64,000 bases of DNA from Amycolatopsis solani. GTDB taxonomy: Bacteria; Actinomycetota; Actinomycetes; Mycobacteriales; Pseudonocardiaceae. The stretch is taken from positions 186,001 to 250,000 of the forward strand of contig NZ_JAWQJT010000001.1 in assembly GCF_033441515.1 (NCBI RefSeq), written 5' to 3'. The translations under genes and the position numbers were made by a program. Each line of letters starts with the position of its first letter. Within the stretch, counting starts at the first letter, position 1. Positions 7,906 to 46,349 of this stretch are shown in pieces. Under the pieces are notes generated by a model. That model saw only the letters and a list, made by a program, of their open reading frames with translations. It did no database searches and was not told the DNA's origin.

Positions 7906-9921
7906 ATGAGATCCCCACGAGGGCTGGCGGCGATCGCCGGCCTGGCCCTGAGTTTCGCGGTGCCGGTGATCCCGGCCGCCGCTGCCGCACCTCCCGTCGC
8001 CACCCCACCCGAGGCGCTCGCCGCGCGAGCCGCCGACCAGGCTGCCCTCAGCGGCGCCGACCGGCTCGCCAAGGGCGCCGGGGAGGCCTTCGTCCGCACC
8101 GGGGTCACCCCGGGTGGCGGCGGGCTCTACTTCGCCTCCTACCAGCGCACCTACCACGGCCTGCCGGTCGTCGGCGGGGACGCGGTCGTCGTCGCCGACG
8201 GGTCCGGGCGCGTCCGCGGGACCGAGGCCGCCGAGACCGCGCCGATCACCGTCGGCACCCAGGCCACGCTGGCAGCCGGCAAAGCCGAAGCGATCGCCCG
8301 AAGCAAAGTGTCCACTGTGGACAAGGCCGACGCGCCGAAGCTGGTCGTGCTGGCCGGGGCCGCCCCCAAGCTCGCCTACGAAGTCGTCGTCAGCGGCCGC
8401 GACCACGGCCGGCCCACGCACCTGCACGTCTTCGTCGACAGCGCGACCGGAGCCGTCCTCGACACCCGGGACGACGTGCGCGAGGCCGGCACCGGCAATT
8501 CGTACTACGCCGGGAGCGTCTCGATCGACACCTCCGGCTCCGGCAGCTCCTACTCGATGACCGACCCCGGCCGGCGCGGCGTCGCCTGCGGCCGCGAGGG
8601 CGGCTCGATCTTCACCAAGAGCAGCAACAGCTGGGGCAACGGGTCCGGCACCGACCTCGAAACCGGCTGCGTGGACACGCTCTACAGCGTCCAGACCGAG
8701 TGGAAGATGCTCAACGACTGGCTCGGCCGCAACGGCATCGACGGCGCCGGCGGCGGGTTCCGCGCGAGCGTCGGCCTCAACGACGTCAACGCCTACTGGG
8801 ACGGGTCGTCGACGCACTTCGGGCACTCGCAGGACAACCGCCGCCAGGCGACGCCGATGGACGTCGTCGGGCACGAGTACGGGCACGCCATCTTCCAGAC
8901 CACCCCGGGCGGCGCCGGGTCGGGCAACGAGAACGGCGGTCTCAACGAGTCCACCGGCGACATCTTCGGCGCGCTGACCGAGTACTACGCCAACAACCCC
9001 GTCGACACCCCGGACTTCTCCGTCGGCGAAGGCGTCAACCTCGTCGGCCAGGGCCCGATCCGCTACATGGACAACCCGTCCAAGGTCGGCGACCCGAACT
9101 GCTACTCGGCCTCGATCCCCAGCACCGAGGTGCACGCCGCCGCGGGCCCGCAGAACCACTGGTTCTACCTCCTCTCCCAGGGCAGCGCGGCCAGCCCGAC
9201 GTGCAACAACTCCAGCGTCACCGGTGTCGGCATCCAGAAGGCCGGCAAGATCTTCTACAACGGCCTGCTGAAGAAGACGTCGTCGTGGAACCACCGCGCG
9301 GCCCGCAAGGCCACGCTGGAAGCGGCGATCGCGCTGTTCCCGGGCAGCTGCACCGAGTTCACCTCAACGAAGGCCGCCTGGGACGCGGTGAGCGTCCCCG
9401 CGGTCAGCGGGGAGCCGACGTGCAGCGGCCAGCCGCCGGCCGGCAACGACTACTCGCTGACGCTGTCGCCGACCTCGGCGTCCGTCCAGCCCGGGCAGAC
9501 GGCGACCACGACCATCACCACCCGGGTCACCTCCGGCAACGCCCAGACCGTCCAGCTGCTGGCCTCCGGCCTGCCCGAGGGCGCGAAGGCGACGATCAGC
9601 CCGGCGAGCGTCCAGTCCGGCGGCACCGCCACGCTGACCATCACCACGTCGGCGAGCACGCCGCAGGGCACCAGCCAGGTGACCGTCTCCGGTGACGGCC
9701 CCGACGCCGACCACAGCGCGCAGTTCTCGCTGACCGTCGGCACCGGCACCCCGCCGACCGGCTGCGACGGCCTCGCCGAGTGGGACGTGGCGAAGCCGTA
9801 CGTGCCCAACGACGTCGTCGGCCACAACGGTCACAAGTGGACGTCCCTGTGGTACTCGACCGGTGCCGAGCCCGGCGCGCCCACCTCGTGGGCCGTGTGG
9901 AGCGACAGCGGCGCCTGCTGA
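7906..9921 (+). CDS. Secreted M4 (thermolysin-like) metalloprotease with Ig-like and chitin-binding CBM5/12 domains
   Basis: Extracellular zinc protease of 671 residues made as a pre-pro-enzyme. Order: signal peptide (1 to about 27, ending AAA-A), FTP/PepSY-type propeptide to about residue 190, M4 catalytic domain with HEYGH (323-327) and the third ligand Glu348 in NESTGD, an Ig-like domain (about 510-610, beginning NDYSLTLSPTS), and a C-terminal CBM5/12 (CDGLAEWDVAKPYVPNDVV, with paired cysteines and conserved tryptophans). The last domain should tether the protease to chitin, where it could strip protein from fungal or arthropod material. GGAAAGG lies before the ATG. It follows an XRE-TPR regulator and carries two DasR-like sites upstream. 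The paralogue at 11590 has a P-domain instead of the CBM. Confidence 0.95.
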   Translation: MRSPRGLAAIAGLALSFAVPVIPAAAAAPPVATPPEALAARAADQAALSGADRLAKGAGEAFVRTGVTPGGGGLYFASYQRTYHGLPVVGGDAVVVADGSGRVRGTEAAETAPITVGTQATLAAGKAEAIARSKVSTVDKADAPKLVVLAGAAPKLAYEVVVSGRDHGRPTHLHVFVDSATGAVLDTRDDVREAGTGNSYYAGSVSIDTSGSGSSYSMTDPGRRGVACGREGGSIFTKSSNSWGNGSGTDLETGCVDTLYSVQTEWKMLNDWLGRNGIDGAGGGFRASVGLNDVNAYWDGSSTHFGHSQDNRRQATPMDVVGHEYGHAIFQTTPGGAGSGNENGGLNESTGDIFGALTEYYANNPVDTPDFSVGEGVNLVGQGPIRYMDNPSKVGDPNCYSASIPSTEVHAAAGPQNHWFYLLSQGSAASPTCNNSSVTGVGIQKAGKIFYNGLLKKTSSWNHRAARKATLEAAIALFPGSCTEFTSTKAAWDAVSVPAVSGEPTCSGQPPAGNDYSLTLSPTSASVQPGQTATTTITTRVTSGNAQTVQLLASGLPEGAKATISPASVQSGGTATLTITTSASTPQGTSQVTVSGDGPDADHSAQFSLTVGTGTPPTGCDGLAEWDVAKPYVPNDVVGHNGHKWTSLWYSTGAEPGAPTSWAVWSDSGAC

Positions 9922-11589: not shown

Positions 11590-15565
<3,976 letters not shown>

Positions 15566-15570
15566 CCTGC

Positions 15571-15607
15571 GGAGGGCGGCACTTTCGTAGGGAAAGTGCC
15601 GCCCTCC
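15571..15607 (+). terminator. Hairpin terminator after M28 gene
   Basis: Perfect 16-bp stem starting GGAGGGCGGCACTTTC with a 5-base loop, six bases after the stop codon, followed by a short AT-rich stretch. GGCACTTTC is shared with the hairpins at 46234 and 46281. Confidence 0.8.
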
Positions 15608-16766: not shown

Positions 16767-16812
16767 CTCGTGAGTGTTTAGTCGGGTTCTAACCCGACTA
16801 AACACTCACGAG
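16767..16812. terminator. Bidirectional hairpin between chitinase and DUF3152 genes
   Basis: Perfect 22-bp stem (CTCGTGAGTGTTTAGTCGGG at the left) with a 2-base loop between convergent genes. It contains the stop codon of the DUF3152 gene (16806-16808). Confidence 0.8.
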
Positions 16813-21244: not shown

Positions 21245-21297
21245 GACGTGAATGACTCATTCCTGTCGTCCGGCGACAGGAATGAGTCATTCACGTC
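21245..21297 (+). terminator. Long perfect hairpin after CHAD gene
   Basis: A 24-bp perfect stem (starting GACGTGAATGACTCATTCCT) with the loop TCCGG, seven bases after the CHAD stop codon. No U-tract follows. Confidence 0.75.
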
Positions 21298-25369: not shown

Positions 25370-26149
25370 GTGAACGCACCCGAGACGCTCGAAATCGCCT
25401 GCAGCAGAGCATGGCCGCCGGTGGCCGAGGAGTTCCTCGGCGGCTGGCGCCTGCGCTGGGCGGACGGGTTCACCGGGCGCGCCAACAGCGTCCTCGCCGT
25501 CGGCGACCCCGATCGGCCGGTACCGGCGGCGCTGCGAGCGGTGTGTGACTTCGCCCACGATCGGGGGATCCCGCCGATGGCTCAGGTGGTCCGCGACAGC
25601 CCGAACGAGCACGCGATCGCCGCGGCGGGCTGGGTCCCGGCGACTTCCCACGGCGCCGGCCACGAGGTCGTCGTCCTGACCGCCCCGCTCGAGAAGCGCC
25701 GCTTTCACGTGAAAGCGACGCCCCCAGGTGGTCGCTTTCACGTGAAAGTGGCGGACGAGGCGACGGCGGGGTGGTGGGAGCTGGTGCTGGGGTCCGACGC
25801 CGGTACCGAAGCCGCGCGGGCTGTGCTGGGTGGTGGGAAGGTCGGCTACGGCGTCGCGACCGACGGTGAGGTGACCACGGCCGCGGTCCGCGGGGCGCTG
25901 GTGGACGGCTGGCTGCACGTCGGGCGGCTCGCCGTGCGCCCGGAGCACCGGCGGCGCGGGCTGGCGTCGGCGCTGATGGCGGCACTGGGAAGCTGGGGCG
26001 TGGAACAGGGAGCGGGCAGCGCGGTGTTGCAGGTGGCGGAGGGGAACTCGGGCGCGCTCGCGCTCTACGCGGGGCTCGGCTACGCCCCGCACCACAGATA
26101 CCGGTACTGGGTGCCCGCACCCGGCTCGTGCGAGGATTCGACGTCGTGA
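25370..26149 (+). CDS. GNAT family N-acetyltransferase carrying an in-frame palindromic repeat
   Basis: Acetyl-CoA-dependent N-acyltransferase of 259 residues. The C-terminal GNAT domain is complete, with beta-4 ending HVGRLAVRPEH and the acetyl-CoA loop RRRGLASAL, then YAGLGYAPHHRY. The N-terminal half looks like a degenerate GNAT-type domain. Between them, at about residues 111-127, the protein reads [17 protein letters not shown], which is the translation of the double palindrome found outside genes elsewhere in the window. The stop overlaps fbiA (GTGA), so it leads the fbiA-fbiB-Nudix unit. It starts at GTG 25370. Substrate unknown. Confidence 0.88.
   Translation: MNAPETLEIACSRAWPPVAEEFLGGWRLRWADGFTGRANSVLAVGDPDRPVPAALRAVCDFAHDRGIPPMAQVVRDSPNEHAIAAAGWVPATSHGAGHEVVVLTAPLEKRRFHVKATPPGGRFHVKVADEATAGWWELVLGSDAGTEAARAVLGGGKVGYGVATDGEVTTAAVRGALVDGWLHVGRLAVRPEHRRRGLASALMAALGSWGVEQGAGSAVLQVAEGNSGALALYAGLGYAPHHRYRYWVPAPGSCEDSTS
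25700..25748. repeat. Double palindrome element (TTTCACGTGAAA family), copy B, inside a gene
   Basis: The 49 bases are the exact reverse complement of 13867-13915. They contain two copies of TTTCACGTGAAA separated by GCGACGCCCCCAGGTGGTCGC and lie in frame within the acetyltransferase gene, encoding its inter-domain linker. Confidence 0.9.
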
Positions 26150-46233: not shown

Positions 46234-46349
46234 GGCGGCACTTTCATGACGAAAGTGCCGCCACCTCACAAGAACTTCACGCGGCACTTTCATGACGAAA
46301 GTGCCGCTACCTCACACGAACCTCATGCCGCTTTCACGTGAAAGTGGCG
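46234..46349. repeat. Three tandem palindromes, about 46-bp period
   Basis: Hairpins at 46234-46262 and 46281-46307 share GGCACTTTCATGACGAAAGT; the third (46328-46349) has CGCTTTCACGTGAAAGTGG, the family seen at 13863 and 25700. The spacers are alike, ACCTCACAAGAACTTCACG and ACCTCACACGAACCTCATG. The array lies between the convergent LCP and NmrA-like genes and may terminate both. Confidence 0.85.

Follow-up and report, generated by a model that had tools for sequence, protein, structure and literature searches.

A dispersed palindromic hairpin family of Amycolatopsis with in-frame copies in an acetyltransferase linker and other genes

The acetyltransferase gene and its palindromic linker

The window, a stretch of 64,000 nucleotides from Amycolatopsis solani that was analysed as a whole, carries a putative acetyltransferase gene with a double palindrome inside its reading frame, and the same double palindrome lies between two genes elsewhere in the window.

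25370..26149, + strand: GNAT-family acetyltransferase, Rv0428c C-terminal-like, 259 amino acids, GTG start (profile match and homologues)
25700..25750, + strand: double palindrome, in frame, GNAT residues 111-127, with cores 19 bases apart, CGACGCCCCCAGGTGGTCG
25702..25715, no strand: first core of the GNAT element, CTTTCACGTGAAAG
25735..25748, no strand: second core of the GNAT element, CTTTCACGTGAAAG, 33 bp (11 codons) past the first
13865..13915, no strand: same double palindrome as the GNAT element, in the opposite orientation, between co-directional genes

The frame at 25370-26149 matched PF24553 (Rv0428c_C) over residues 6-246 (E 4e-27) and PF00583 (E 4.2e-13), and 740 homologues were obtained at E ≤ 1e-3 from 7998 candidates scored. 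The reading frame is thus real. An earlier note on this DNA had reported that a 49-bp double palindrome at 13867-13915 is repeated inside the GNAT gene, and positions 25700-25748 are indeed its exact reverse complement. The copy at 13867 had been placed between genes; it is intergenic and, by our own gene calls, starts 12 bases past a stop codon. The element had also been described as two RFHVK units whose 18-base core never brings a stop. The first unit agrees with the 18-mer CGCTTTCACGTGAAAGCG, but the second differs from it by one base (GAAAGTG). The claimed register and the register reading LSRES are open, but the third register gives TGA. Only the 14-bp core of the unit is constant, the outer stem being variable; the wider family also has 5-nt loops. 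In an AlphaFold2 model of the protein (mean pLDDT 83.9), pLDDT was below 50 at residues 113-119, that is, in the first unit and just beyond, and the lowest-confidence loop lies within the first unit, while the second unit continues into a predicted strand at residues 124-128.

A hairpin family and its place in the genome

Allowing up to three mismatches, the 18-mer CGCTTTCACGTGAAAGCG occurs five times in the window (mean 0.02 in 100 shuffles), and the pattern CTTTC-N(2-12)-GAAAG occurs eight times (0 in each of 20 Markov-1 sequences). The A. solani genome (10.28 Mb) contains 85 copies of the core CTTTCACGTGAAAG and none of its reversed pattern, and 165 copies of CTTTC-N(3-7)-GAAAG compared with 14 of the reversed control. 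The core is thus one form of a larger group of hairpins, CTTTC-loop-GAAAG, further members of which lie in the window.

15572..15606, no strand: hairpin with a 15-bp stem, arms CTTTC/GAAAG and loop GTAGG
46241..46255, no strand: hairpin CTTTC-ATGAC-GAAAG between convergent genes
46287..46301, no strand: hairpin CTTTC-ATGAC-GAAAG between convergent genes
46331..46344, no strand: core CTTTCACGTGAAAG, separated by 13 bp from the next gene, whose stop side faces it

In 864 kb of A. solani, a sample partly picked around known copies, the family has 31 copies, 17 with the loop ACGT and 14 with five-base loops; eight permuted-arm controls gave 0-4 each. The stem is lengthened by at least 3 bp per side in 27 of 41 core copies, the outer bases being variable and often paired. 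The outer triplets of these 41 copies are GCA (20), CCG (8), TCG (6), GAG (4), TCA (2), and TAG (1). Pairs spaced 33 bp apart at eight A. solani loci have a common spacer around ACCTGGGGGC, which argues that the compound unit was copied. Six hairpins folded at -12.6 to -58.9 kcal/mol, and no shuffle folded equally well. The core copies listed in A. solani are scattered over contigs.

Coding status was assigned using our own codon-based gene calls. The family was found in 9 of 76 convergent, 7 of 305 co-directional, and 0 of 139 divergent intergenic regions (convergent versus the remaining regions, Fisher p 9e-5), and many copies start 5-30 bases from a stop codon. For the core, the first 41 of the 85 copies were classified. 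These lie at 30 loci, where 22 copies are intergenic and 19 are in frame within 12 genes, 14 in the LSRES register and 5 in the FHVK register. The description of a dispersed repeat in the earlier note is thus borne out by 85 core copies in the genome and by in-frame copies in 12 genes among those examined. A Pfam scan covered 11 of the 12 host genes (ten plus GNAT; L032 was left out). Besides GNAT, the scanned hosts comprise a DUF2207 membrane protein, an ABC ATPase, two HATPase/HAMP proteins, a BTAD (AfsR-like) regulator, an AMP-binding enzyme, SoxG, Lyase_1, and two polyketide synthase modules. Coding copies in the 864 kb number 6 of 17 for the ACGT loop and 0 of 14 for five-base loops (p 0.02); when the 19 of 41 ACGT copies, a partly different sample, are set against the same 0 of 14, p is 0.001.

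The codons supplied by the palindrome are rare in A. solani: TTT accounts for 1.2%, AAA for 4.6%, CTT for 1.1%, TCA for 1.3%, and CGT for 4.0% of the codons for the respective amino acids. Since the in-frame copies use such rare codons, it is the DNA word rather than the peptide that is kept. In the GNAT linkers of eight genomes, 15 of 15 FHVK peptides retain the exact 14 bases. The earlier note had named as its refutation a segment shared by all orthologues with synonymous changes. The outcome favours the note: given that all 15 keep the 14 bases despite the rarity of TTT and AAA, the segment is not an ordinary linker undergoing synonymous drift.

Distribution, filled sites and turnover among Amycolatopsis genomes

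Among 60 Amycolatopsis genomes, ten (A. solani included) have 26-181 core copies and fifty have 0-3. In 150 sampled genomes of the host's family, including six other Amycolatopsis, the core was found in A. solani only. The bare 14-mer was also present in 37 stretches of a viral collection with one site each; these were taken as background, and carriage by phages was rejected. Two 7-Mb genomes, G010 and G055, have 330 and 352 copies of CTTTC...GAAAG and no ACGT core. Another hairpin family, the reversed GAAAG-N(3-7)-CTTTC, reaches 72-523 copies in 19 of the 60 genomes, in which CTTTC...GAAAG numbers 7-21.

GNAT linkers carry family hairpins in 11 of 11 parsed genomes with at least 55 family copies and in 0 of 13 with at most 24. 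This tally rests on 24 of 30 loci that were parsed, and omits the six unparsed loci, 29 matched genomes that yielded no locus, and one unmatched genome; G010 and G055, both rich in the 5-nt form, are among the genomes omitted. The prediction that the element is missing from the linker of family-poor relatives is therefore confirmed by the 0 of 13, whereas confinement of the element to this species is contradicted by the 11 of 11. The loop is ACGT in eight of the eleven bearers, and CCTAC+GTCAT, CTGGG+TCGGC, and TCAGG+CTAGG in one each. One linker (G046) has a single intact unit and a remnant of the second, GTGAAAGTG, and that of G016 is longer and unrelated. Among named Amycolatopsis, hairpins were seen at 7 of 20 GNAT loci, including those of A. 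eburnea, A. rifamycinica, A. bullii, and A. pretoriensis. The linker of the AfsR-like regulator carries palindromes in 7 of 9 genomes with at least 39 core copies (one clear unit in G038) and in 0 of 10 others; G022 has a CCGG centre at this linker.

In the ABC ATPase, the palindrome substitutes codons without an indel, as in KTSLPAESALLF of non-bearers and KTALSRESALLF of bearers, which are of equal length. It is present in 9 of 9 genomes with at least 39 core copies, with one base changed in G022, and in 0 of 10 others; in this tally and in that of the AfsR-like linker, G029 (26 core copies) was placed among the others. Seven columns are fixed in the bearers, five inside the core and two in the second codon past it. 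Because these two bases lie past the core, they suggest that a tract was shared or copied and not the word alone. Plain insertion of the element is accordingly too simple a view: the GNAT linker is only nine residues longer than the plain linker, although the element has 17 residues, and the ABC ATPase shows no length change. Simple half-arm templating (quasipalindrome correction) was rejected as well, given that the centre and one right-arm base of the ABC copy are also new. The Lyase_1 element occurs in 4 of 32 aligned orthologues (A. solani, A. eburnea, A. pretoriensis, and one more) and is absent from the close relative cg9. Inspection by eye revealed no recognisable target duplication at the copies.

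We built a tree from 9480 DNA columns of three loci in 18 genomes. It pairs G026 (115 core copies) with G037 (3 copies) with full support. The pair was supported at 89 by the ABC ATPase, 100 by AfsR, and 100 by all three loci, and was not recovered by GNAT alone. Another fully supported clade holds G022, G035, and G026 together with G037, G024, G016, and G039, the latter four having 0-3 copies. On this tree the bearers do not form one clade, which implies either repeated filling of identical spots or their passage from species to species. The plain GNAT linker and the plain ABC sequence are common to non-bearers across the tree and therefore look ancestral. Flank distances, a weak test, follow the species and not the other bearers to the right of the GNAT element, and lean slightly toward the other bearers near the ABC element. 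Introgression of a long segment was rejected on the GNAT right flank in this weak test; short tracts may nevertheless have been transferred between species, since two of the seven fixed ABC bases lie beyond the core. The elements look like repeated gains at one and the same position, or like short tracts passed between species.

The comparison of gene ends covered 664 kb of A. solani, 400 kb of G059 and, for G003 and G036, 600 kb apiece. Where the flanks are 88-97% identical among A. solani, G003, and G036, the slots vary in the presence, number, and loop of their hairpins. Site 13 is filled in A. solani only, site 21/33 is filled in G003 and G036 and empty in A. solani, the number of hairpins differs at site 8, and the loop at site 1 is GTAGG or ACGT in an unchanged stem. 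The hairpin at 15572..15606 has its counterpart in the close relatives G003 and G036, with the same stem and the loop ACGT. A copy at 6610870 in G036 is intergenic and starts right after a TGA on the other strand. In two-hairpin clusters with two five-base loops, the loops were reverse complements in 5 of 5 cases (GGTAC/GTACC, CCTAC/GTAGG, CCCGT/ACGGG, ACAGG/CCTGT, and ATAGG/CCTAT), so that such a cluster can also fold as one long hairpin, as computed for one of them. This rule is broken by the three- and four-unit clusters (site 3) and by a mixed pair (site 14 of A. solani). Several of these slots hold unrelated hairpins in other species.

Other repeats were seen alongside the family. The 13-mer GTCCACWGTGGAC occurs 234 times in A. 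solani (positions 8311, 38330, 47780, and 59451 of the window among the matches listed) and 0-640 times per genome in 100 sampled Pseudonocardiaceae, with 0-2 for the reversed control; its 11-base core is coding at 31 of 34 sites in the 864 kb. It behaves like a highly iterated palindrome, spread far more widely than the family of the GNAT element. CTAAACACTC is found at 16798 of the window and at 27 further places in the 864 kb, 26 of the 28 being intergenic, and forms, in the copies printed, the end of the hairpin GTTTAGTCGGGTT(AG/CT)AACCCGACTAAAC. None was found in G003 or G036 (600 kb each) or in G059 (400 kb), and CTAAACACTC looks like a recent expansion of the A. solani lineage at gene ends. 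AATGASTCATT lies at 21251 and 21281 of the window; in the copies printed it is paired about 30 bp apart. Its counts are 25 in A. solani, 30 in G036, 4 in G003, and 0 in G059, and none of the 25 A. solani copies lies between convergent genes, the opposite of the other families. In G059 (contig C1 near 3290149, site 14), the stem of a hairpin CACGAGCAGACCGGCACTTTC-GCGT-GAAAGTGCCGGTCTGCTCGTG seems to enter the coding 3' end, as though an inverted copy of the gene end had been placed behind it. Between convergent genes of A. solani, from position 360878 of contig C1 onward, lies a long G-rich stretch that includes runs of about 30 G.

Interpretation and comparison with known systems

The reading we favour, with a probability of about 0.62, is a family of REP-like hairpins, some copies of which are embedded in proteins. 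The units would be lineage-limited dispersed palindromes that work like REP elements without the REP transposase, each with arms CTTTC/GAAAG, a loop of ACGT or five variable bases, and a variable, often paired outer stem. Lying often right behind stop codons, they can form a stable hairpin in a transcript of either strand, and their most likely role in that position is to mark or protect the 3' ends of transcripts. The fully palindromic ACGT form is present in coding DNA too, where two of the three registers are open, and coding copies would survive in loops and tolerant segments as FHVK or LSRES peptides, the GNAT linker being one such site. The copies may derive from other members of the family through copying or conversion, either inside a species or across species, and the embedded peptide is presumably neutral or mildly costly. 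The family is dispersed, limited to certain genomes, and fast in turnover; it lies in frame in proteins with rare codons and occupies the same spots in bearers outside a single clade. Against the favoured reading stand the lack of a recognised target duplication, of a PF01797 match, and of a T-run behind the window copies. Two further results do so as well: the absence of an indel in the ABC ATPase, which plain insertion does not predict, and the sites shared by bearers that are not one clade, which random dispersal does not predict.

Both results suit an account in which the 14-mer is the binding site of a trans-acting protein, and lineages using it obtain their sites through mutation and selection, also in place within coding sequence, while non-users lack them. 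The ABC site, which shows no indel, is filled in 9 of 9 genomes having at least 39 core copies and in 0 of 10 others; bearers share sites without forming one clade; the ACGT form is coding in 6 of 17 (p 0.02) or 19 of 41 (p 0.001) copies compared with 0 of 14 for five-base loops; and the core differs from parS by one base in each half, going by the consensus in the available part of PMC7383237. However, ACGT and 5-nt loops interchange in one stem at 3' slots, and three GNAT linkers have 5-nt loops in coding DNA; the core is therefore not invariably retained. A common spacer is found in compound pairs, two of the seven fixed ABC bases lie past the core, so a tract and not only the word is shared, and the core places listed are scattered over contigs. 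We consider a binding site unlikely on balance. Its ParB form is disfavoured, as is a ParB/Noc switch: no ParB/Noc tracking the sites was found, as each of the 19 genomes tested gave a single HTH_ParB match whether or not it carries the element, and canonical parS numbers 1-3 in all 60 genomes. Similarly doubtful is a switchable, genome-wide palindromic word imposed by a trans-acting process that rewrites codons in place. LSRES and FHVK would then arise at the same residues in separate lineages at each adoption, and sister species would lose or never gain the word. Protein-embedded palindromes and transposase-less REPs are known, and the unexplained part is the in-place, recurrent filling of codons.

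An uptake-like drive, by which DNA bearing the word is preferentially taken up or recombined and piles up at permissive sites (inverted at gene ends, in open registers within genes), would account for the near-binary counts of sister genomes (G026, 115; G037, 3). Intragenic and inverted intergenic copies resemble uptake sequences (available part of PMC2346458), for which dialects are known (available part of PMC3630211). Nevertheless, the half-word CACTTTC, counted inside and outside palindromes together, is only moderately in excess (observed/expected 46/27 in A. solani, 56/17 in G003, and 14/13 in G059), copies number just tens to hundreds, and the flanks right of the GNAT element follow species and not the other bearers; we regard this drive as quite improbable. 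Mobilisation of a REP element by a RAYT (Y1) transposase would agree with hairpins, doublets, 3'-end location, and intragenic units as described for REPs in the available part of PMC3733652, but is very improbable, as the search for a mobilising enzyme, confined to PF01797 (Y1, RAYT transposase), gave matches in 0 of 60 Amycolatopsis and 5 of 14 control genomes, and no constant GTAG or CGTC tag was present at the stem end in 41 copies, where the outer triplets vary. Hairpin-derived linkers at one position in 11 genomes could point to an ordinary protein linker selected for its peptide; the rare codons in 15 of 15 FHVK peptides, the other peptides made from family hairpins in three genomes, the 13 genomes without a hairpin, and the reading of the same DNA as LSRES elsewhere leave this hardly credible.

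Amycolatopsis offers an actinomycete case in which close relatives, empty and filled sites, and identical codons filled in genomes outside one clade allow a direct study of how such elements enter proteins. Peptides such as LSRES or FHVK in Amycolatopsis proteins, among them polyketide synthases, can be the product of DNA repeats instead of a sign of protein function. Literature searches on palindromic repeats and Amycolatopsis, coding palindromes, the 14-mer and 12-mer, and actinobacterial REPs returned no description of the element among the matches listed (titles and abstract starts); many of those for the 12-mer concern ParB/parS.

Compared with known systems, the central 12 bases of the core, TTTCACGTGAAA, equal the parS core, and NBS sites are likewise dispersed, whereas the outer half-site base is C here, G in parS, and A in NBS (consensus in the available part of PMC7383237). 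The uptake sequences of Pasteurellaceae and Neisseria, as covered in the available part of PMC2346458, share the inverted intergenic and the intragenic copies; unlike them, the Amycolatopsis unit is itself palindromic and has tens to hundreds of copies versus hundreds to thousands, and it has no known link to competence. Intrinsic terminators are G+C-rich hairpins followed by a T-run; here the hairpins are stable, no T-run follows the copies in the window, and the copies could be terminators of a kind lacking a T-run. Like REPs, the family consists of short palindromic hairpins in many copies, mostly at 3' ends, with 22 of 41 core copies intergenic. The CGTC and GTAG families in the available part of PMC3733652 likewise are small hairpins, often dimers, with intragenic units (CGTC loops of 4-5 nt), are sited near 3' ends between convergent or co-directional genes, and, for CGTC, apparently have no dedicated transposase; that source covers intragenic REPs as well as REP families for which no transposase is known. 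Unlike REPs, the Amycolatopsis element has no constant tag, an actinomycete host, 19 of 41 examined copies coding, and an ABC copy without an indel. The resemblance to Rickettsia elements proposed in the earlier note stands insofar as palindromes lie in frame in unrelated proteins (12 genes), with the reservation of one site without an indel, and it is a likeness by description. Rickettsia palindromic elements differ from the Amycolatopsis element in unit size and loop variability. As summarised in the available part of PMC3733652, which cites the Rickettsia elements, protein-embedded palindromes occur in Rickettsia and several other bacteria, and the Amycolatopsis element is like them in placing palindromes within unrelated proteins.
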